DNA of 64,000 nt from Burkholderia sp. BCC0506. Its GTDB lineage: Bacteria; Pseudomonadota; Gammaproteobacteria; Burkholderiales; Burkholderiaceae. The DNA is taken from contig NZ_CADFEN010000005.1 of NCBI RefSeq assembly GCF_902833145.1, positions 496,001-560,000 of the forward strand, given 5' to 3'. The position numbers and the translations under genes are program-made. Below are positions 12,021 to 22,165 of this stretch, one piece after another (the first letter of the stretch is position 1; each line of letters begins with the position of its first letter). The notes beneath the pieces were generated by a model. The model had not been told where the DNA came from and made no database searches. It worked only from the letters and a program-made list of their open reading frames with translations.

Positions 12021-13193
12021 TCACGGAAACGTGAACGTGAATTCCGCGCCACCGCCGGCATAGCCGGGCGCCAGTTCTCCGTCCGCGCCGGTGCGAATGT
12101 ACTGGGCTCGCAACGGCATCACGGCCAGGTCGCCGGACCGGCGCATCGGATACCTGGTGGCCGTGCCCGGCTCGCCGTAGGCGATCCGCTCGCCGCTCAG
12201 CCCATTCGTCATCACGATGTTGAACCCGCGCGCCACCGTCTGGCCGGCCGGCGCGCTGAGTTGCAGCAGCGTGCTGTCCGGATTCGGCCGGGCAGCCTTG
12301 TCGCGGAAGCTGATCGAAGGCTTCGCCGCGGCCGCGCACTGGTTGAGCGTGATATCGAAATCGACCGGCTTCGATGTCGTATTCACACTCGGAAACTGAC
12401 TGACCGAAAATTTGCCGAGCGTGACCGGCACGATCATGCCCGACTGAATCTCGCAGCGGTTCGGCACCGTGATCTCGCATTCGCTGCCGATACAGACGTT
12501 GCCGACGCCGACGAAGAACTTGCCCTGCTTGCACAGATTGGGGGGCACCGTCGACTCCGGCACGGTCACGGTTGCGCCCTCCGATACGGCGCCTTTCGGA
12601 AAATCGATCGCATACAGCGCCACGGTCGGGTTGCCCGGCAGGCTCCTGACCACCAACTTCCCTTCCGGCAACTGGGAAACCGGCTGATCGAGCACCAGGA
12701 ACTGCCGGAAGCGCATCACCCGCGCATCGGTCCCGCCACCCGACGGCAGGAGTGCGTTTTTCGCGGTCACCATCGGCAGGCCGCTTTGTCGCAGCGTACG
12801 CTCGACGCCATCGCCGGAAACGCCGACCCATTTGAAGCCGATGCCGGACACGTTCGTCTGCGCGACGCCATCCGGGACGACCGTGCCCGGCGCCCAGTGT
12901 CCGGCGCTCGCCAGCTCGTGCGCGCTCGACGCGTTGCCGTACTTGAACGCGACCATCAGCGTCACCGTGCGTTGATACAGCGTCGAGCCGACCGGCGTCG
13001 CACTCGTCAACGGGGTGATCATCCGCCAGGGTGTCGCATCGACGTTGCTGAACGTGCAATCCAGCGCCGTCGTGCCGCTGTTGCCTTGCGCCGCTGCAGG
13101 CGCGCAGAATGCGAGCGCCACGCATCCGGCCGTCGCGAATCGACGCATCGCCAGGCCTGCTTGCCTGAATCCGCGCCAGTGGATCGTCTTCAT
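12021..13193 (-). CDS. Fimbrial tip-like subunit (two-domain adhesin)
   Basis: 390 aa, twice the size of a major pilin. Signal peptide about residues 1-36 (cut near APAAAQ). An N-terminal domain of about 200 residues without obvious pilin features is followed by a C-terminal pilin-like domain from about residue 225, with cysteines in NVCIGSECEITVPNRCEIQSG and an alternating C-terminus (GGGAEFTFTFP) as recognised by PapD-type chaperones. This layout fits a tip adhesin: receptor-binding domain plus pilin domain. Last gene of the fimbrial operon, 65 bp after the haemagglutinin-like gene, with a long hairpin in the gap. The receptor is unknown. Confidence 0.8.
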   Translation of the reverse strand: MKTIHWRGFRQAGLAMRRFATAGCVALAFCAPAAAQGNSGTTALDCTFSNVDATPWRMITPLTSATPVGSTLYQRTVTLMVAFKYGNASSAHELASAGHWAPGTVVPDGVAQTNVSGIGFKWVGVSGDGVERTLRQSGLPMVTAKNALLPSGGGTDARVMRFRQFLVLDQPVSQLPEGKLVVRSLPGNPTVALYAIDFPKGAVSEGATVTVPESTVPPNLCKQGKFFVGVGNVCIGSECEITVPNRCEIQSGMIVPVTLGKFSVSQFPSVNTTSKPVDFDITLNQCAAAAKPSISFRDKAARPNPDSTLLQLSAPAGQTVARGFNIVMTNGLSGERIAYGEPGTATRYPMRRSGDLAVMPLRAQYIRTGADGELAPGYAGGGAEFTFTFP

Positions 13194-13211
13194 GGTGTTT
13201 CCCGTGGAAGC

Positions 13212-13251
13212 GGCGGCGGGCGCCATCTGCTTGCGATGGTCGCCCGCCGCC
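13212..13251 (-). terminator. Long intercistronic hairpin before the tip subunit gene
   Basis: GGCGGCGGGCG pairs with CGCCCGCCGCC, with an inner CCATC/GATGG stem: about 16 bp with one bulge. No T-run follows, so it more likely stabilises the upstream mRNA or tunes distal expression than ends transcription completely. Confidence 0.5.
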
Positions 13252-13258
13252 AGTCGCG

Positions 13259-16255
13259 TTACTCGATCACGCCAAGATTGAGGCCCGCGATCTTCTGCAG
13301 CGCAGCCTCGCCAGACACGATGCTGTTGCGGAACGTGCCGCGGTTGATGCCGACGAGACCGCCGAAGGTCTGAGTCGACGATCCGTTGACTCGCCCGCTT
13401 GCGGCAGCGCGCTCGACGAGGCCCGCGTTCATGCCGACGAAGCCGCCGAGCGCCGCGTAGCAGCCGGCGCCGATCGTCCCCGACGCCGACGCGTCGGTCA
13501 CCGTGCCGAGGTTTTCACCGACAAACCCGCCCACCGTGCCCGACGTGCCGCCGGACACGTTGCCGGTGGCCGACGCGGTCGAGATCGTGCCGTACGTCAT
13601 GTTGATGCCGGCGAAACCGCCGGCCGACGCGCCGGTTCCGGCGGATACATCGCCGCTCGCGTCGACGTTGGACAGTTCGGCCGAGTTGCTGCCGACGAAG
13701 CCGCCGGTCTTGCTGTAGCTGCCGCCGGTCGTCTTGCCGCGCGCGACGGCATGGGAAATCCGGCCGCCGGCGTGATTGCCGACGAAGCCGCCATTCGCGC
13801 CCTGCCCACCGCTGACCGCACCGTGCGCTTCCGCCATGTCGATTTCCGCGTCCGCGCCCATATTCATACCGACGAAGCCGCCGGTCGAACCCGTCGATGC
13901 GCTCGTGACCGCGCCCAGCGCCTTGCTGTCGGTCACCGCCCCCTGGTTCATTCCGACAAAACCGCCGATCGCCTGCGCATACCGGCCATCCACGATGCCG
14001 CTCGCGCTCGAACCCGCGATTTTGCCGGTGTTACTCCCGACGAGCCCGCCGGCCGCGCCGCCCGAGCCGCCCGTCACGCGCCCCAGTGCCGTCGCACCGG
14101 TGATGGTGCCCAACAGGTTCGCACCCACGAACCCGCCGACGTTCACGCCCGCCAGATTGAAGCCCGACGTGGTGCCGCGGCTCGTCGAGCCGACGATTTC
14201 CCCGCCGCGGTTCACGCCGACGAGGCCGCCGATCGACGCCAGATTCGATGCACCGCCCGATACGTTCGCGTTCGACTCGCCGTCCGACACGAGCCCCGCG
14301 TTCCGGCCCAGTCCGTTTTCGCCGACCAGGCCGCCGACCGCATACGACATGCCGTTGCCCGACACCGATCCGGTGTACGACGTGTGCAAGATGTCGCCGT
14401 GGTTGATGCCGACCAGACCGCCCAGCGCATTGCTGCGGCTGGCGCCGGCGCTCACCTGCATGTTCGTCGCGTTCACGTTCGAGATCGTGCCGACGTTCTC
14501 GCCCACCAACCCGCCGATGGCGACCGGCCCCACGCCCGACGCGGCGCTGACGCGCAGCGACTTCAGGTTGAGGTTGGCGAGGACGCCCGCGTTGCGACCG
14601 AACAACCCGGCATAGGGATCGTTGCTCGAGATCGTGAGGTTGCTGATCGTGTTGCCGAGGCCGTTGAACACGCCCGCGAACGACGCGCCCGAGCCGATCG
14701 TCTTGAATGTGCTGCCGTAGTACGAGCCGGCGATGTCGTTACCGAGCACGTACAGTCCGCCGAGGTTCGCATTGACGGCCTGCAATTGCTGCAGGTTCTG
14801 GATCACGGTGTAGCGATAGCCGTTCGATTCGAAGCCGGCTCCGGCACCCGACAGCGTCACCGCCGCGCCCCCCGTCAACGCATGCGCGACGCCGTAGTCG
14901 AGCGTAAGCAACGCGTTCGCGCCGGTCAGTGCGATCGGTGCCGCGATCGAGACGTTGTCCCGTGCCGCGATCGCCATGCGCGCATTCGCACCGGTTGCGC
15001 GCAGCGGCCCCTTGACCGATACGTCGCCCTGCTGGCTGGCCAGTTTCAGGCGGTTGCCGCTCGCCCACGTCACCGGCCCCTCGACCGACAGCGTGCCGCG
15101 TTCGGCCACCAGCTCGACGTCGGTCGTCGCGAGGTTGCGCGACAGCGTGTCGGCCACGATCGTGCCCGACTGGTTCGCGCCCGCCGTGACGCCCAGGTTC
15201 GAGGTCGCGATGCGCCAGGTGCCGCTGCGCCCGTTGACCGCGCGCGTATCGACCATCGTCCCGAGCGCGACCTTCACGTCGGCGCCGCGCGTGTCGACCG
15301 TACCACCGTTGCCCGGCGCCGTCGCGCTCGCGTTCAGCATGCCCGCGACATTGACCGTGCCGGCGTCGTACCCGTCCAGCGAGATTCGGCCCGCCGTGTT
15401 CCTGAGCGTTCTCGCCTCGATGCTGCCCTGGTTGTTGACCACCGTGCGCAGCACCGCATCGGCCGTCTTCGCGCTCATCAGTACCTGCCCGCCGTCGGCC
15501 TTCAGCAACTGTTCGTTGCTCGCCAGCGCGTTGACGATGCCCCGATCGATCTGCACGTTGAGCAGCTTGCCGCCGTCGAAATTCAGCGTCACGTCGCTGC
15601 CCGCACCGAGCGCGACGGTCCCCATCTGCGCCTGCACGATACCGCGGTTCGTCACGCGTGCGCCGAGCAGCGCGATCGAACCGCCTTCGCTCGCGACGAG
15701 ATTGCCGAAGTTCTGCACCTCGGCCGGGGAGTCGCCGGAAAACCGCAGTCGACCTGCTTCGAAGTCTTCGTCCTTGATGTGCAGGGTCGTCGCGACCAGC
15801 CCGCCGACGTTGACCTGTGCCCCCTTGCCGAACAGGATGCCGTTCGGGTTCACGAGGAACACGCGGCCATTCGCGTCGAGTGCGCCGTAGATCGCGCTGC
15901 CGTCCTGACCGACGACGCGGTTCAGCGCGATCGACGTGGTGGACGGCTGGTTGAACGTGACGCGTTGCCCCTTGTCGATGTTGAACGACTTCCAGTTCGT
16001 CACCAGCTTGTCGGTATGCTGGTTGATCGACATCTGCTGCCCGTTGTCGTAGGTCAGCATGTCCGCCTTTCCGGACACGACGGTCCCGTCCACCGGCAAT
16101 GCGTATGCGGACGTCAGCGTGCCGCCCGTGAGCAGCGCGAGCACCGCGACGGTACGCGCGCGCGTCGCGGATTTGCCGCGCCGACGTGCCCGCTCGCCGG
16201 CTACCTGCCAGACACCCTGCCTGCTGTTCCATACCAAAGCGTACGATTTGTTCAC
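13259..16255 (-). CDS. Filamentous-haemagglutinin-like (TpsA-type) adhesin with GLUG repeats
   Basis: 998 aa, GTG start overlapping the upstream chaperone stop (GTGA), with AAGGAA upstream. Domains in order: extended signal peptide region of type V proteins (MNKSYALVWNSRQGVWQVAG); Sec signal peptide ending about residue 52; TPS/haemagglutination-activity domain (about 53-170) with the VNPNGILFGKGAQVNVGGLV signature; beta-helical stretch to about 500; then 14 GLUG-type repeats with core GG(L/F)VGxN every 25-50 residues to the C-terminus. TpsA proteins are normally exported by a cognate TpsB pore, but no TpsB gene is in the window; this gene sits inside a chaperone-usher operon. There is no membrane anchor, so release or another surface-holding mechanism is implied. 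Confidence 0.88.
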   Translation of the reverse strand: MNKSYALVWNSRQGVWQVAGERARRRGKSATRARTVAVLALLTGGTLTSAYALPVDGTVVSGKADMLTYDNGQQMSINQHTDKLVTNWKSFNIDKGQRVTFNQPSTTSIALNRVVGQDGSAIYGALDANGRVFLVNPNGILFGKGAQVNVGGLVATTLHIKDEDFEAGRLRFSGDSPAEVQNFGNLVASEGGSIALLGARVTNRGIVQAQMGTVALGAGSDVTLNFDGGKLLNVQIDRGIVNALASNEQLLKADGGQVLMSAKTADAVLRTVVNNQGSIEARTLRNTAGRISLDGYDAGTVNVAGMLNASATAPGNGGTVDTRGADVKVALGTMVDTRAVNGRSGTWRIATSNLGVTAGANQSGTIVADTLSRNLATTDVELVAERGTLSVEGPVTWASGNRLKLASQQGDVSVKGPLRATGANARMAIAARDNVSIAAPIALTGANALLTLDYGVAHALTGGAAVTLSGAGAGFESNGYRYTVIQNLQQLQAVNANLGGLYVLGNDIAGSYYGSTFKTIGSGASFAGVFNGLGNTISNLTISSNDPYAGLFGRNAGVLANLNLKSLRVSAASGVGPVAIGGLVGENVGTISNVNATNMQVSAGASRSNALGGLVGINHGDILHTSYTGSVSGNGMSYAVGGLVGENGLGRNAGLVSDGESNANVSGGASNLASIGGLVGVNRGGEIVGSTSRGTTSGFNLAGVNVGGFVGANLLGTITGATALGRVTGGSGGAAGGLVGSNTGKIAGSSASGIVDGRYAQAIGGFVGMNQGAVTDSKALGAVTSASTGSTGGFVGMNMGADAEIDMAEAHGAVSGGQGANGGFVGNHAGGRISHAVARGKTTGGSYSKTGGFVGSNSAELSNVDASGDVSAGTGASAGGFAGINMTYGTISTASATGNVSGGTSGTVGGFVGENLGTVTDASASGTIGAGCYAALGGFVGMNAGLVERAAASGRVNGSSTQTFGGLVGINRGTFRNSIVSGEAALQKIAGLNLGVIE

Positions 16256-17118
16256 TTCATTTTTCCTTGTTGTGGTTGAATTCCTGCCGATTGCCCCGGC
16301 AGGACGGGTACTGCAAGCGATGTGCGAGGCGGGGCGAGCGCCGCGCGATATTCATGCGATGCGCCGTTGTCGTCGACCGCGTCGAACGTGATGTCGCCGG
16401 CATGGGTGTCGGCGTCCGCACCGATCGGGACATCCACACGATCGAACGGGGCGACCTCGACCGAGCCGTTCGCCAGCGCGACCGGTTCGCCGTTCAGCAG
16501 CAGGCGCGTGAGCGTCACGTAGTACGGCGTGGGATTGATCGCCGTGACCGGTGCGGTTGCGCTTCCGCCCGCGCGCGTCCACGCAAGCCGATTCGGTGCG
16601 TCGTCCGCCTCGCCGGCGAGACCGGCCGGCCGATACAGCACCTTCATCCTCAGCCGGTACGCGATGCGCAGCGTGTGGTCGCCCGCGCGGGCGGCCGGCG
16701 GCACTTCGAGCAAGTTGATCCAGAAGCGGGATTCGCGATCCGGTGCGAGCGCGCCGACAGCTTGCACGCGGATCGACAGCGACTGCGCCGGTTCGACACG
16801 CGCAAGCGGCGGCGTGACGACGAACGGCACGCGAAGATGGCTCGGATCGGCATTCGCGTCGCCGTCATCGAGCCACGCCTGCACGAGGATCGGCGCTTCA
16901 CCGCCGTTGCGGGCCAGCATCGTCATCGCGTGCGCATCGCCCGGATAGACGAACCGCGTGCCGACCACGTACAACGCCGCGTCGCAGCGCATCGCGGCGG
17001 TGCTTGTCGCACCGGCGAGCAACACCACACGCACGACGCGGGCAGCCCTCGCGCGACCGCTCGAACGACGCGGCGGCACACCGCTCACCGATTCCGTACG
17101 AACAACGTAACCGCGCAT
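16252..17118 (-). CDS. Fimbrial periplasmic chaperone (PapD/FimC family), second copy
   Basis: 288 aa. Two immunoglobulin-like domains of a pilus chaperone: N-terminal strand with ALYVVGTRFVYPGD, the conserved RESRFWINLLEVPP segment in the F1-G1 region, and NPTPYYVTLTRLLLNG in domain 2. The N-terminus is Arg-rich with a weak signal peptide to about residue 48. It lies 4 bp after the usher stop and overlaps the haemagglutinin-like gene. With another chaperone gene at the front of the operon, this one may serve the distal products, the tip subunit or even the haemagglutinin-like protein; that is inference. About 40 residues longer than typical, through both termini. Confidence 0.9.
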   Translation of the reverse strand: MRGYVVRTESVSGVPPRRSSGRARAARVVRVVLLAGATSTAAMRCDAALYVVGTRFVYPGDAHAMTMLARNGGEAPILVQAWLDDGDANADPSHLRVPFVVTPPLARVEPAQSLSIRVQAVGALAPDRESRFWINLLEVPPAARAGDHTLRIAYRLRMKVLYRPAGLAGEADDAPNRLAWTRAGGSATAPVTAINPTPYYVTLTRLLLNGEPVALANGSVEVAPFDRVDVPIGADADTHAGDITFDAVDDNGASHEYRAALAPPRTSLAVPVLPGQSAGIQPQQGKMK

Positions 17119-17122
17119 CGCG

Positions 17123-19894
17123 CTAACGCTCCCGCACGGCGGACGGTTCGGCGACCAAAGGCGCCGTGGCCGATGCGCGGCAGGTACCGGGCAACGTCAC
17201 GTAACCGCGGCCGGAACGTTGCGCATCCGGTATCGCGTAATCGATCACGCACTGCTGGTCCTCGCGCGTGCCCCATTCGACGCGAATCTGCCCGTCGTTG
17301 TCGGCGCTGCGCACGAACAGCCGGCTACCTTGGCCCACCACGCCGAGCGCAGCGCCCGAGCGCGCGTCGACGGCGCGGGCCGCGAACGGCAGCGGTCGGC
17401 CGTCTTCGGTCTGTGCGTCGATCAGCAAGGCGCGCGCCCTCAACGTGTCGTACGGCAGCAGCACGATCGAACCCGCACGCGGCGCCACGCTGTTCGACAC
17501 CGTCTTCAGTTCCACATCCTCCGGAACGTCCTTCGGATCGATGTCGACGCGGTTCAGCTGATACGGAATCAGACTCGGCACGATCGCGTAACCGAACCGG
17601 TTGACACGTGCGCTCGTATTCGCCACCCGCGCGCCGCGCGCGTCCGGTGCATGCACGATACCGACCGTCTCGCTCAGCGTCGGCGCCGCGATCAGGCCGC
17701 CGCGATGCAGCACCAGGCCGCCCGTCGCATTCGCCGACGCCTGCTGATAGTCGCGCCCGAGCCCGATGTTCGCCGACAGCGACGTGGCCGGCATCTGATA
17801 GCCGACGCCGAAACTGCCCGACGATGCGCGGTGGTTACCGTCGTAGCTGGACGACAACGAGAACGATCCATCGCCCTGTTCGCCGAAGCGGCCGGCCAGG
17901 CTCGCGGTGGCGCTCGTGCCGGTGCTGCTGTCGTGCGTCATGAGCGTGCTGAAGGTCGGTGCACGGCGCGAGTTGCGTCCCAGCGGGATCGACAGGTTCA
18001 CGCTCACGAGCGTGCCCGATCCGCCGCCGTACCATGGATCGCGTGTGGACAGATTGCGTACGCGCTGCACCGACGTGGTCAGCGTCGCATCGCGCCATTG
18101 CGTGCTGTAGCCGATCGTGAACCCGATCGACTGCCCTTTGCCGGCCCAGTAGCTGAGTGCCGACCCGTTTGCATAGACGCTCCCCGCGCGCCCGATCTGC
18201 TGACTCACGTTGAGGTCGACCCGGTTGCGCAACCGTGGGAATGACGCGGCGTCCGCGCCCTGGGCGCTGCTGCCGTTCAGCAGCAGCGCGTCGCGCAGCC
18301 CCAGATAACCCTTCGTCGAGTAGCGATACGCGAGCAGCGAGAAGTTCGTGCCGCTGTTCGGCAGGTTCTTGCTGTACGACACGCGAATACTCGAACCGGT
18401 CTGGCGCTCGCTGCCGGACGGTTGGGCCCGCGAGACCGTGACGTCCGTCGCGAAGCCGCCGATCGACGTATTGAGCGCGACCCCCATCAGTACCGATTGA
18501 TAGCGGTTTGCAAACGCCGCGCCGCCGTAGGCGGTCACCGCGTTGCTGACGCCGCGCTGCACCGTGAACTGGCCGACGTACTGCGTGCCGATATCGCCGC
18601 CAAGTTCGATCGCGCGGCCGGCCATCGCGCTGAACCGCGTACTGCCAGGACGAAGCAATTGCACCGTCGTCGCGAACGGCACGACGAAGCTGCGCGTTTC
18701 GCCGTTGGCCTCGGTCACCGTCACGTTCAGGTCGCCGCCATAGCTCATCGCCTGCAGGTTGTCGATCGCGAACGGACCGGGCGCGACGGTCGTCTCGTGG
18801 ACCAGATATCCGCGCTGGTAGATCGACACCTTCGCGTTCGTCTGCGCGACGCCCCGCACGACCGGCGCGTAATAGCGCTGTTCGTCGGGCAGCATCCGGT
18901 CGTCGCTGGCGATCTGCACGCCGCGAAACGACACCGCATCGAACAGCGCGCCGCTCGTCGAACTCTCGCCCGCGAGCAACTGGGCCTGCCAGTCCGGCAA
19001 GTCGGTTTGCGCATACACGTAGCCGCGCTGGTAGCGCGCGCCACCGCGTTGCGACCAGGTCAGGTTGCCGTTGTGGCGAATCCGGAACCGGCCCGCGCTC
19101 GCGCCCATCGACAGGCCCGTGTAGAACTGCGTGAATTCGGCGCCGCCGGAGCGCGTCGTAAACACGCTGGCGTTGTAGTTCACCAACGCGGCAGGCACAC
19201 CGTTCGTCCAGTGCGCCGGATCGACGTAGGTGCTTTGGCTGGCCAGCCGCATGTAGAACTGCGGCACGGTCAGATACAGCTTCTGCTCGGCCGAGTCGAA
19301 CGACAACTGCGCGCCGGGCACGTAACGCGACAGTGGCGCGCAGATCAACCCGTCGGGCATCGGGTTCGGCGGCTGGCTGGCGTCCTGACCGCGTTCGCTG
19401 CGATCGAGATCGACACCGACGCGCCGCAGCAGCGCGCGGTCATAGCATGGCGAAACGTCGCCGTGCTCGTCGGGGCGAAACGTGATGTCCTCGATGCCGC
19501 GCCACTGCCCGTTGACGATCAGATCCGCGCGGTGCTGACCGGCCGCCACGCCGTTCGGGCGCTCGAACGGCGTCGTATCGATCGGCGCGCTGCCGGCCCC
19601 GACCATCAGCATCGAATCGTCGAAATGCGTCGCGCCGGAGGGCCGCGCATCGCGCGAGGCCTTCGGATCGTTACCCCGATCGATCGTCTCGGCCAGCGCG
19701 CTGACGCTTGCCGCCATCGCAATCGATGCGACTGCCGACGCGACTGCTCGCCGGCACGGATGTTGCGGAGCAAACGGCGCCGGACACGAAGCAAATGAAA
19801 AGGGAAAACCTGCTGGACGCCGCATGTCGAGTGTCGATACAGTTGTTTTGCATGACGAATCGATATCGCGTATTCGCGGCATCCGGTTCGGCAT
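17123..19894 (-). CDS. Fimbrial outer-membrane usher (PapC/FimD family)
   Basis: 923 aa. Forms the outer-membrane pore that assembles and exports pili. Visible parts: an N-terminal domain binding chaperone-subunit complexes (ADLIVNGQWRGIEDITFRPD, with the CYDRALLRRVGVDLD region), a 24-strand beta-barrel with internal plug, and C-terminal domains ending in CVIDYAIPDAQRSGRGYVTLPGTC, the conserved disulfide. The start is uncertain: an ATG at 19894 gives a long Arg/Pro-containing leader, while an internal methionine (MRRPAGFPFSF) would shorten it by 23 residues. Third gene of the operon. Confidence 0.92.
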   Translation of the reverse strand: MPNRMPRIRDIDSSCKTTVSTLDMRRPAGFPFSFASCPAPFAPQHPCRRAVASAVASIAMAASVSALAETIDRGNDPKASRDARPSGATHFDDSMLMVGAGSAPIDTTPFERPNGVAAGQHRADLIVNGQWRGIEDITFRPDEHGDVSPCYDRALLRRVGVDLDRSERGQDASQPPNPMPDGLICAPLSRYVPGAQLSFDSAEQKLYLTVPQFYMRLASQSTYVDPAHWTNGVPAALVNYNASVFTTRSGGAEFTQFYTGLSMGASAGRFRIRHNGNLTWSQRGGARYQRGYVYAQTDLPDWQAQLLAGESSTSGALFDAVSFRGVQIASDDRMLPDEQRYYAPVVRGVAQTNAKVSIYQRGYLVHETTVAPGPFAIDNLQAMSYGGDLNVTVTEANGETRSFVVPFATTVQLLRPGSTRFSAMAGRAIELGGDIGTQYVGQFTVQRGVSNAVTAYGGAAFANRYQSVLMGVALNTSIGGFATDVTVSRAQPSGSERQTGSSIRVSYSKNLPNSGTNFSLLAYRYSTKGYLGLRDALLLNGSSAQGADAASFPRLRNRVDLNVSQQIGRAGSVYANGSALSYWAGKGQSIGFTIGYSTQWRDATLTTSVQRVRNLSTRDPWYGGGSGTLVSVNLSIPLGRNSRRAPTFSTLMTHDSSTGTSATASLAGRFGEQGDGSFSLSSSYDGNHRASSGSFGVGYQMPATSLSANIGLGRDYQQASANATGGLVLHRGGLIAAPTLSETVGIVHAPDARGARVANTSARVNRFGYAIVPSLIPYQLNRVDIDPKDVPEDVELKTVSNSVAPRAGSIVLLPYDTLRARALLIDAQTEDGRPLPFAARAVDARSGAALGVVGQGSRLFVRSADNDGQIRVEWGTREDQQCVIDYAIPDAQRSGRGYVTLPGTCRASATAPLVAEPSAVRER

Positions 19895-19934
19895 GCTGGT
19901 TCGTGCCTCAAAGCCCGTTGCGTAGGCCGACGGA

Positions 19935-20714
19935 TCAGTCGGTCAGTTTTTTGGTTATCGTGCTGCGTCCGCCGTAGTCGTCGATGACCATGTAGCGGAC
20001 CGTCGCCGGCCGATGCGCACGCGCGCCGACACCCGGCAACGCGAAGCGCTCCGTACCGAACGGCGCCACCATGCCGCCACCGGCGGGCACGAACGTGCCG
20101 TCGATCTCGCCCTCCACCGACCCGAAGGAAACGTAGTAAGGCGTCGGATTGGAAACCTCGAGCGACACGCGGCGCTCGTTGTTGCGCTGCGGGTCGGCGG
20201 CCATCTTCCAGACCAGTTTGTCCGCCGCCAGGTCGACGTCGTTTGCGAGCGCGGCAGGTCGGTAAAACAACTTGATGCGCGTCCGAAATGCGAAACGCAG
20301 CATGTTGTCCTGGTCCTGCTCGGCCGCCGGCACCTCGAGCACGTTCAGCCAGAACACCGATTCGCGATCGGCGGGCAGCGGATCCTCCATCCGCGTAATG
20401 CGCAGCACGGCGCCTCGCCCCGCTTCGACGCGCGTGAGCGTCGGCGCGACGACGAACGGCGTGCGCATCTGCTCGGGCGGAACGTTCGCACGGCCGTCGT
20501 CGATCCAGCTCTGTGCGAGCACGGGCTGAGTTCCGGCGTTTTCCATCCGGACGGTCACGTCGCGGGTATGCTCGGGAAAAATCACCCGGGTACCGTTCAA
20601 CAGCAGTGCCGCCTGCGCCAGCGACGCGCAGGCGGCCCACGCCACGACGCTCGCCACGGCTTTACGATAAGGAATGCGAATAGACAAGATCATGGCGTGG
20701 AGCGGAAATGGCAT
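19935..20714 (-). CDS. Fimbrial periplasmic chaperone (PapD/FimC family), first copy
   Basis: 259 aa. Signal peptide to about residue 35 (ACASLAQA), then ALLLNGTRVIFPEHTRDVTVRMENAG, the classical first strands; RESVFWLNVLEVPA gives the interactive G1-strand neighbourhood and RIKLFYRP the conserved Lys/Arg subunit-docking cleft. Domain 2 has SNPTPYYVSFGSVEGEIDG. It lies 3 bp after the major pilin stop, so it is co-expressed and caps that pilin in the periplasm. Typical length. A methionine at residue 8 (MILSIRIP) is an alternative start. Confidence 0.92.
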   Translation of the reverse strand: MPFPLHAMILSIRIPYRKAVASVVAWAACASLAQAALLLNGTRVIFPEHTRDVTVRMENAGTQPVLAQSWIDDGRANVPPEQMRTPFVVAPTLTRVEAGRGAVLRITRMEDPLPADRESVFWLNVLEVPAAEQDQDNMLRFAFRTRIKLFYRPAALANDVDLAADKLVWKMAADPQRNNERRVSLEVSNPTPYYVSFGSVEGEIDGTFVPAGGGMVAPFGTERFALPGVGARAHRPATVRYMVIDDYGGRSTITKKLTD

Positions 20715-20717
20715 CGA

Positions 20718-21296
20718 TCAGTGGTAAGCGAGCGTATAGCGGATGAACGAGTTACCCGTACCGGTCCCGACCGTGCTCTTCGTCGACACATACGCAGCCG
20801 AATAGGTCAGCGTCGCAGTGTTGTTCGCGATCGTCGCGACCTGCGCGTCGGTCATGTTCTGCGGTTGCCCGAGCGTGATCTTGCCGCTCTTGCCGTTGCC
20901 CGCGTCGCTGATCTGGATCTCGACGCCATCCGCCGGCTTGGTGCCGATGAGCTTCAGGTTGCCGGTTGCCGGGTTGATGTTGACCGACACGGGATCGAAA
21001 TCGATCACGACCTTCGTGCCGTTGGTGCAACCCGTGTTACCGCCGATCTTCAGGTCGAACGTGACGGGCGTCGACGTCGCGCCGACCTTGTCGAACGTGC
21101 TCGGGCTGATGCGGTCGCCCAGTTGCACTTCCTGCCGGTTGCCCGGACCGGGCGCTTGGCCGTTGATGTTGCAGGTGACGTCGGAGATGCTGCCGTAGAA
21201 GGCGAGTTCGCCATCGAACGCGTGGGAGATCGACGGCACCAGTGCGGCACCGGCGATGGCAGCAGCAACACAACCCCGGACGAAATTCACTTTCAT
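20718..21296 (-). CDS. Major fimbrial subunit (type-1 pilin)
   Basis: 192 aa. Signal peptide MKVNFVRGCVAAAIAGAALVPSISHA, cut after residue 26. Mature pilin with FDGELAFYGSISDVTCNINGQ at the donor-strand end, Cys42 and a second Cys near GGNTGCTNGTK for the family disulfide, and the penultimate aromatic C-terminus RYTLAYH recognised by chaperones. AGAGGA precedes the ATG. First gene of the six-gene fimbrial operon (pilin, chaperone, usher, chaperone, haemagglutinin-like, tip-like), so the promoter should lie just upstream in the AT-rich region 21.3-21.7 kb. Confidence 0.92.
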   Translation of the reverse strand: MKVNFVRGCVAAAIAGAALVPSISHAFDGELAFYGSISDVTCNINGQAPGPGNRQEVQLGDRISPSTFDKVGATSTPVTFDLKIGGNTGCTNGTKVVIDFDPVSVNINPATGNLKLIGTKPADGVEIQISDAGNGKSGKITLGQPQNMTDAQVATIANNTATLTYSAAYVSTKSTVGTGTGNSFIRYTLAYH

Positions 21297-21694
21297 CTTT
21301 GATTCCTCTCAAAATGGATATCTTTCTCGAAACAGCCCGACCCACGTACGAACACTCGCCACGTCAATCGGATCGCCATATCCGGGACATGAAAATCAAT
21401 TTGACCCTGAGAATTGACGATCGCGCCATTCTATTTGACCGCCCTTATTCCCGATATCGTACGAGTAAGAAATATGAGATTCATTTTTTGCCGTGCCGAT
21501 ATCACGGCTCGACCGACCGAAACACGGCGTCGAGAGCGCGTTCCGGGAGGCGTCCGAGCGTCATACGGCGATTCGGCCAGATGGAATATGCCAATGAGGC
21601 AAATACATGGACGGTAAAACTGTTTAATTCGCCGTCAACGTCTCTCTCTCGACGCGGAGATTTGTGAACTTTCTTAACGCCCCGGGCCTGAAAT

Positions 21695-21708
21695 TAGGAT
21701 AAGTCCGA
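21695..21708. promoter_or_regulatory. RcsB-like box upstream of the fimbrial operon
   Basis: TAGGATAAGTCCGA matches about 11 of 14 positions of the enterobacterial RcsB consensus as I remember it and sits 399 bp upstream of the pilin start. LuxR/NarL-type response regulators commonly control fimbriae; the identity of any regulator is speculation. Confidence 0.25.
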
Positions 21709-21903
21709 ATATGCCCCCCCTGATTTCACATACGGAACAGTGTTGCTCCGTTTATCGCGGTTTTAATTCTTCAAAGGGGGTGCCGCCGCGCGGCTGTACC
21801 GCATCGGCCAGAGGGTCGGTAAAAGAGAATGAATGTCCGTCGTACTGCCGCAGGACCGCCGCCGGCATCGCGGGCCGGCACGCCGCGTACAACGCCCGCG
21901 CAT

Positions 21904-21932
21904 AAAAAAACGCCCGCTGCAAGCAGCGGGCG
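21904..21932 (-). terminator. Intrinsic terminator of the candidate sRNA
   Basis: CGCCCGCTG and CAGCGGGCG form a tight stem followed on the minus strand by TTTTTTT. Strong classical terminator. Confidence 0.8.
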
Positions 21933-21966
21933 CGAATCCCAGTCAAGGAGGTGTCACACGAACTAC
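21904..21966 (-). ncRNA. Candidate ~60-nt sRNA with anti-Shine-Dalgarno segment
   Basis: A short minus-strand unit: promoter at 21973-22001, predicted start near 21966, a single-stranded stretch containing CACCTCCTT (identical to the 16S rRNA anti-Shine-Dalgarno tail), then a 9-10-bp GC stem (CGCCCGCTG/CAGCGGGCG) and seven T residues ending at 21904. It lies beyond the kgtP terminator, so it is probably its own transcript. Such a molecule could mask ribosome-binding sites. No expression evidence; the call rests on promoter, motif and terminator occurring together. Confidence 0.5.
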
Positions 21967-21972
21967 GGGCTC

Positions 21973-22001
21973 AGGATAAGAGCATCGGCGGCGGCGAACA
22001 A
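21973..22001 (-). promoter_or_regulatory. Sigma-70-like promoter of the candidate sRNA
   Basis: On the minus strand: -35 TTGTTC (21996-22001), a 17-bp spacer, -10 TATCCT (21973-21978). Correct spacing and close hexamers in a GC-rich genome make this a credible promoter reading left toward the terminator at 21904. Confidence 0.5.
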
Positions 22002-22013
22002 CGAAGCGATTGT

Positions 22014-22025
22014 GATATCGATATC
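22014..22025. promoter_or_regulatory. 12-bp palindrome GATATCGATATC
   Basis: Perfect palindrome, 12 bp upstream of the -35 of the candidate sRNA promoter. Possible operator or activator site; no regulator is suggested by neighbours. Confidence 0.3.
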
Positions 22026-22075
22026 GCACGTGCCTCGATGAGCTTGCGCGCGCGCCAGCCAACTCGTTCCCGATG

Positions 22076-22110
22076 AAAAAACGGCGCGCCGCCTGCGTGG
22101 CGGAGCGCCG
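22076..22110 (-). terminator. Intrinsic terminator of kgtP
   Basis: CGGCGC and CCGCC pair with GCGCCG and GGCGG around a TGCGT loop; on the minus strand a T6 run follows. Lies about 55 bp beyond the kgtP stop. Confidence 0.8.
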
Positions 22111-22165
22111 TCGTGCTGCGTGTCGAGACGGACACCGGGCCGCGCCGGCCGGGCCGCCCCGCCGA

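Follow-up and report, generated by a model that had tools for sequence, protein, structure and literature searches.

The cupB locus of Pseudomonas aeruginosa is described as a six-gene cluster in the consulted parts of three papers (PMC3031594, PMC5022761, PMC12051241). According to the first of these (PMC3031594), its genes encode, in this order, a pilin, a chaperone, a P-usher (an usher with an N-terminal POTRA domain), a second chaperone, the TpsA-like protein CupB5 and an adhesin. There are two published answers to how CupB5 leaves the cell. One is the P-usher and the other is LepB, the TpsB of a two-partner secretion (TPS) system, which in the accessible text of PMC12051241 (citing Garnett 2015) is said to transport LepA as well as CupB5 through the outer membrane. 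Here we describe a related operon in a 64,000-nucleotide stretch of Burkholderia sp. BCC0506, positions 496001-560000 of contig C5 in a 7.29-Mb genome labeled G000 (this whole stretch is called the window below). Judged by sequence, this operon is the Burkholderia counterpart of P. aeruginosa cupB1-6, and we estimate with a probability of roughly 0.77 that its TpsA would be exported by a distant LepB-class TpsB and not by the usher. A preliminary description of the locus did not recognize cupB1-6; the two options that it offered, export by a distant TpsB or a hybrid surface structure in which usher or chaperone helps the adhesin, correspond to these two published answers.

Results

The window operon is of the cupB type

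Six open reading frames (ORFs) lie head to tail on the minus strand from position 21296 to 12021 (Table 1) and encode a pilin, a chaperone, an usher, a second chaperone, a filamentous haemagglutinin (FHA)-like TpsA and a tip protein. All six passed the curated Pfam cut-offs, and the families found agree with the six-gene order given in the preliminary description. The intergenic gaps are, in operon order, 3, 40, 4, -4 and 32 bp, so the tight packing and 4-bp overlap described earlier stand, while the upper limit of 65 bp was too large. The overlap joins the GTG start of tpsA (16255) to the TGA of the second chaperone gene, again as first described. It is present in only 2 of the 15 Burkholderia operons that we compared, the other 13 having gaps of 78-152 bp (the 152-bp value belongs to B. 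stagnalis and was derived from coordinates), and this rules out the overlap as a functional key.

We assigned the operon to the cupB type because its tip protein matches CupB6 (solved structure 5cyl), its first chaperone matches CupB2, and its gene order is that of cupB, also in P. aeruginosa PA7. All six genes match a single PA7 locus (L151) in the same order, with 40-54% identity over the aligned parts. The window operon differs from cupB1-6 of P. aeruginosa in its host genus, in this level of identity and in its flanking genes. With standard chaperone-usher pili such as type 1 it shares the chaperone, usher and pilin families, but it adds a second chaperone and a TpsA, and its tip is of the CupB6 type. 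By homology, a surface pilus would be assembled from these genes, as in cupB. The six-gene operon is already known in P. aeruginosa, and the window holds its Burkholderia member.

The tpsA gene keeps its place in operons of three genera

Related operons were sought by the tip gene, and the sample therefore does not lean towards TpsB. A full-length tip was found in 15 of 65 genomes of the genus. All six genes occur in the same order in 14/14 genus relatives with a full-length tip, which argues that the order is not due to chance and rules out a one-off recombinant. Named relatives in the genus include B. anthina, B. catarinensis, B. multivorans, B. paludis and B. stagnalis. Outside the genus, the tip was matched in 10 of 398 sampled Pseudomonas genomes, and a separate scan gave nine Pseudomonas loci, partly from the same genomes. 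A family sample yielded matches in 19 of 398 genomes, five of these in a second genus (g274), and a class-wide sample in 1 of 369, the window's own.

The stretch from the second chaperone to TpsA was in view in 34 operons (15 Burkholderia, 14 Pseudomonas and 5 g274), and TpsA follows the second chaperone in every one of them. This is the comparison of gene order that the preliminary description had proposed, and we looked in particular for the case that it had named as contrary, a tpsA that is absent or displaced beside an intact fimbrial operon; in 34/34 operons tpsA was in place. Operons kept in this count in spite of flaws are G044 (in-frame TAG in TpsA), P. protegens 14B2 (TpsA matched in two frames), P. 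edaphica (tip on another contig, L149 and L199 being two contigs of one operon) and G1155 (usher in two frames, draft assembly). We left out L155, where 67 residues of the tip but none of the operon genes were matched, G541, which shows no more than the tip and the TpsA end, and fragments of a tip in G008 and (a second one) in G032. L139-L146 duplicate eight loci of the L050-L063 set. In 3 of the 14 Pseudomonas operons, likewise kept, the window pilin was unmatched; these are the operon of G764 and a second operon in each of G503 and G792.

The adhesin resembles two-partner secretion proteins

The preliminary description credited the FHA-like protein with an ESPR, a TPS domain and 14 GLUG repeats, and our Pfam search and motif count agree. 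We counted 14 GG[LF][VA]G motifs, and eight Glug stretches pass Pfam on their own. In an alignment of 15 TpsAs, every row stops ∼30 residues past the last G-G/S-LVG motif. A structure model based on these 15 sequences (mean pLDDT 80.9) is made up nearly entirely of strands with a few short helices, and it is of low confidence at residues 1-51 and ∼210-290, the latter covering part of the TPS domain. The best solved matches of the model were chains of EtpA, HxuA, HMW1 and HpmA, which are TpsA proteins or their secretion domains; for the first three, E values ranged from 1e-18 to 6e-10, with low TM-scores of 0.14-0.25 over the whole query. Among the best 50 structure matches we observed no pilin fold other than one Thermus pilin row (E 1.3), and neither Pfam nor the model comparison found a pilin or donor-strand domain in TpsA. 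The protein thus has the ESPR/signal peptide, the N-terminal TPS domain and, in the model, the beta-helical passenger of a TpsA of two-partner secretion (type Vb). It shares the TPS domain, in sequence and in model, with EtpA, HMW1 and HxuA, but unlike these it is encoded in a pilus operon and has no adjacent TpsB in the window.

A LepB-class TpsB lies elsewhere in the genome

G000 contains nine TPS regions and six ShlB-type TpsB matches (C5:305268, C2:235477, C2:401888, C2:578231, C10:50046 and C18:44026). None of the six falls inside the 64-kb window, in line with the earlier statement that no TpsB gene is present. At C2:225-235 kb lie three TpsAs whose TPS domains share 58-59% identity with that of the window TpsA; the next best match reaches 34% over 93 residues. 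At this locus (C2:225019-236943, L064), three tandem GLUG-type TpsAs of 977-1151 aa, counted from the ESPR start, stand beside a LepB-class TpsB (C2:235357-236943). The TPS domains of the trio are 95-97% identical to one another, and one pore may serve several TpsA clients there. The window tpsA has no adjoining TpsB but has one of the matching class in the same genome. A further TpsB, at C18:43393-44820, has no TPS match on its own contig, and weak matches of its kind occur in many genomes of the genus.

In PA7, LepB is 53% identical to the TpsB at C2:235357, and the TPS domains of CupB5 and LepA are 59% identical to each other. We take the PA7 locus to be lepBA from its domains (ESPR, TPS and Glug in the TpsA, POTRA_2 and ShlB in the TpsB) and its ndh- and clpB-like neighbors, which accord with the gene order around lepBA. 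Compared with LepBA (Tps4) of P. aeruginosa, the trio locus has three TpsAs beside one TpsB, and we claim no protease activity for them.

Half of the related operons contain their own TpsB

Upon analysis of the 34 operons, we found that the second chaperone and TpsA are separated by a LepB-class TpsB in 17: 13/14 from Pseudomonas (all but PA7), 4/5 from g274 (all but G1005) and 0/15 from Burkholderia. In these seven-gene operons, TpsB ends 66-83 bp before TpsA by computed coordinates, a computation that misplaced the stop of the second chaperone in P. edaphica and G1155 and that gave P. protegens a start that is not a start codon. The one in-operon TpsB that we scanned has POTRA_2 and ShlB domains, and when all six G000 TpsBs were used as queries, the best match within each related operon was the LepB-class one. 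In B. stagnalis, a TpsB precedes the pilin on the same strand at a distance of 282 bp, and a TpsB is thus found inside or directly beside 18 of the 34 operons. For 14 operons, the LepB-class TpsB is elsewhere in the genome; these are PA7, with LepB, and 13 Burkholderia operons, whose TpsBs have 59-100% identity to the G000 copy (that copy included).

The preliminary description had also asked whether TpsB co-occurs with the operon in related genomes. At ≥57% identity, LepB-class TpsB was present in 37 of the 65 genus genomes, comprising 14/15 operon carriers and 23/50 others (Fisher p 0.001, a test that ignores kinship among species). Two B. stagnalis TpsAs at contig ends (L238 and L239) matched neither the window TpsA nor the one trio TpsA compared, and we take them to be of another class. 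Up to 12 candidates were scored in each genome, and the number of TpsAs counted for a genome may be an underestimate. In G055 (L236), the TpsB frame is open and the adjoining TpsA is a ∼55-residue remnant, as if this TpsB were kept for another client. B. stagnalis and G055 are natural tests that speak in favor of the LepB-class TpsB as exporter.

No POTRA domain is found in the usher

We searched the window and PA7 ushers for POTRA families with Pfam and found none up to E 1. We then read by eye the N-termini of the window usher, 13 of the 14 other genus ushers (L056 was left out) and the PA7 usher. These begin with a signal-peptide-like stretch, followed by a low-complexity linker of ∼20-60 residues and then PapC_N. 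Pfam POTRA_2 has 76 positions, and by eye the linker before PapC_N in the window and PA7 ushers leaves no room for a POTRA domain. Lastly, a profile of 21 usher N-termini compared with TpsB POTRA regions gave a probability of 0.1, against 99.7 for a control of five other TpsBs. Pfam, the reading of the N-termini and the profile comparison revealed no hidden POTRA, and the feature that defines a P-usher was found in neither usher; under another definition, this region might count as POTRA-like.

The six-gene form is probably a reduced seven-gene form

In trees of the usher and of TpsA, six- and seven-gene operons are intermixed. The six-gene form needs three changes on these trees, and well-supported branches force at least two. 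In the TpsB tree, the 17 in-operon TpsBs make up one side of a branch (support 95/93; 92% of 200 bootstrap trees). On these unrooted trees, a single gain of tpsB followed by losses is a simpler account than repeated insertion at one and the same junction, and by this comparison the six-gene form is probably a reduced seven-gene form. The ancestral operon would then probably have contained a seventh gene, tpsB, at the junction of the second chaperone gene and tpsA. PA7, Burkholderia and one g274 genome have the six-gene form and, among those searched for it, mostly a TpsB of the same class elsewhere. For Burkholderia, the tree fits loss of tpsB and never having had tpsB alike. In the consulted parts of the open-licence PubMed Central literature, which leaves out subscription journals, we found no mention of a seven-gene cupB form.

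Features of the window operon and its surroundings

The coordinates of the operon are collected in Table 1. For the usher, the ATG at residue 24 looks by eye a more likely start than the first ATG.

Table 1. Genes of the cupB-type operon and domains of its TpsA, in window coordinates
Feature	Position	Strand	Evidence
Major pilin (CupB1-like), 192 aa	20718..21296	-	Pfam FimA, E 3.7e-8; 62-81% identity in 14 genus relatives
First periplasmic chaperone (CupB2-like), 259 aa	19935..20714	-	PapD_N/PapD_C; best solved match CupB2 3q48, E 8.5e-75
Outer membrane usher (CupB3-like), 923 aa from first ATG	17123..19894	-	PapC_N, Usher, PapC_C
Second periplasmic chaperone (CupB4-like), 288 aa	16252..17118	-	PapD_N/PapD_C; best solved matches YadV 5ghu and CupB2 3q48
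TpsA-type adhesin (CupB5-like), 998 aa, GTG start	13259..16255	-	ESPR, TPS, Glug; mostly beta model
ESPR extended signal peptide of TpsA, residues 1-46	16118..16255	-	PF13018, E 4.8e-12
TPS secretion domain of TpsA, residues 57-303	15347..16087	-	PF05860, E 2e-45
GLUG repeat array of TpsA, residues ∼578-998	13262..14524	-	PF07581; 14 GG[LF][VA]G motifs
Two-domain tip adhesin (CupB6-like), 401 aa	12021..13226	-	5cyl, E 3.4e-67 over residues 53-401; Fimbrial domain

Upstream of the pilin, ∼870 bp (21297-22165) contain no listed gene, and their guanine-cytosine content falls to 43% per 100 bp; this stretch is a possible control region. By ORF reading only, without a family search, the flanking genes are amino-acid ABC transporter-like and MFS transporter-like. 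Another chaperone-usher usher is located just left of the window (C5:493638-495269), ∼13 kb from the operon, and the start of the first window ORF (1-500) resembles a fimbrial protein by eye. Among the relatives, the in-frame TAG of G044 lies near the middle of TpsA (L051:8884-11886), and matches to the remaining five operon genes cover most of each gene. A TPS protein in a frame of 3881 aa starts ∼3 kb downstream of the cupB-type operon of B. anthina (L053 from 16020; G037:C1:1461168). Five Pseudomonas seven-gene operons (L152, L154, L153, L202 and L204) have one or two extra TpsAs directly downstream of the tip, the extra copy in L153 running off the locus.

Discussion

The usher without a POTRA domain, the kinship of the TPS domains, the co-occurrence of operon and TpsB, and the TpsB inside 17/34 operons together favor export of the window TpsA by a distant LepB-class TpsB, one of the two options first proposed. 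Export via a separate pore is most likely, since a gene for such a pore lies inside many of the related operons. By this route, the two chaperones and the usher would assemble pilin and tip protein into a pilus, as other chaperone-usher systems do. TpsA would not be an usher substrate; its TPS domain would be recognized by the POTRA domains of a LepB-class TpsB, for which the candidate in G000 is that at C2:235357-236943, and TpsA would cross the outer membrane there. The same TpsB would also serve the three adjoining GLUG-type TpsAs.

Several points weigh against this assignment. In the part of PMC3031594 that we could consult (citing Ruer 2008), CupB3 is said to have an N-terminal POTRA domain and to be essential for CupB5 secretion, and CupB4 is said to be needed for surface CupB1 and CupB5, its deletion abolishing both. 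An operon with an open tpsA is present in G048 (Burkholderia sp. Bp8963), and we found no LepB-class TpsB in the ∼210 contigs of this genome's assembly; its three ShlB-type TpsBs reach at best 27% identity to the LepB class. Our genome-wide tally of TpsBs covers all of the 34 operons but that of G1005, and the kinship ignored by the Fisher test counts here as well. PA7 LepB groups with Burkholderia TpsBs in one tree and next to in-operon TpsBs in the other, and its position is unsure because it shifts with the rows used. Finally, we know of no secretion assay for any of the Burkholderia proteins considered here.

Whether the usher itself could export TpsA along with the pilus subunits, by means of an N-terminal POTRA domain and with the second chaperone, has to be weighed since this was reported for CupB3 of P. 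aeruginosa (PMC3031594, citing Ruer 2008, in the part consulted). The presence of TpsA within the same operon in 34/34 cases and the result for G048 fit such a P-usher. However, neither the window nor the PA7 usher yielded a POTRA or, by eye, has room for one, half of the operons carry a LepB-class TpsB, which in the scanned copy has its own POTRA_2 next to ShlB, and LepB is described as the CupB5 transporter in the accessible text of PMC12051241. We consider this explanation improbable for the window operon. The hybrid structure of the preliminary description loses its usher-export part on the same grounds (no POTRA, and a TpsB inside or beside 18/34 operons), whereas a hybrid that forms once TpsA is outside and that involves the second chaperone and the tip is compatible with our data. 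Even less probable is export through one of the G000 TpsBs that belong to a different class. The C18 TpsB would be available for this, having no TPS domain on its own contig and a similar TpsB in G048, and some TpsBs are said to export more than one TpsA or to look promiscuous (PMC5422565, in the part consulted). Yet the only close relatives of the window TPS domain are clients of the LepB-class TpsB. C18-like TpsBs are matched weakly in many genomes, whether or not these carry the operon (classes not counted separately), and the six G000 queries together gave a LepB-class TpsB as the best match within each related operon.

Two further explanations accept a TpsB as the pore and differ in what TpsA does with the pilus. 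TpsA may be a passenger only, co-transcribed but exported on its own and functionally unconnected with the pilus. This rival shares its export route with the distant-TpsB reading and differs only on shared use, so that the two overlap. The TpsA-type fold without a pilin or donor-strand domain and the similar TpsAs at stand-alone tpsBA loci agree with it, but the position of TpsA behind the second chaperone is constant in all 34 operons of three genera, and CupB1 and CupB5 are reported to be lost from the surface when CupB4 is deleted (PMC3031594, citing Ruer 2008, in the part consulted); we hold the passenger reading to be plausible but less likely than not. More tentatively, the original form might be a seven-gene machine with two pores, the usher and TpsB, in which TpsA, once exported, is held or displayed on the pilus by the second chaperone and the tip to give a composite organelle, and the six-gene form would be a reduced version that borrows a TpsB encoded elsewhere; this we hold to be unlikely.

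For export by a distant LepB-class TpsB, the constant position of tpsA beside the second chaperone suggests shared use of pilus and adhesin at the cell surface. Of the two published answers for CupB5, the P-usher and LepB, the 17 operons with both an usher and a LepB-class TpsB favor the TpsB route. These operons also offer strains in which the role of each pore gene is separable one gene at a time.

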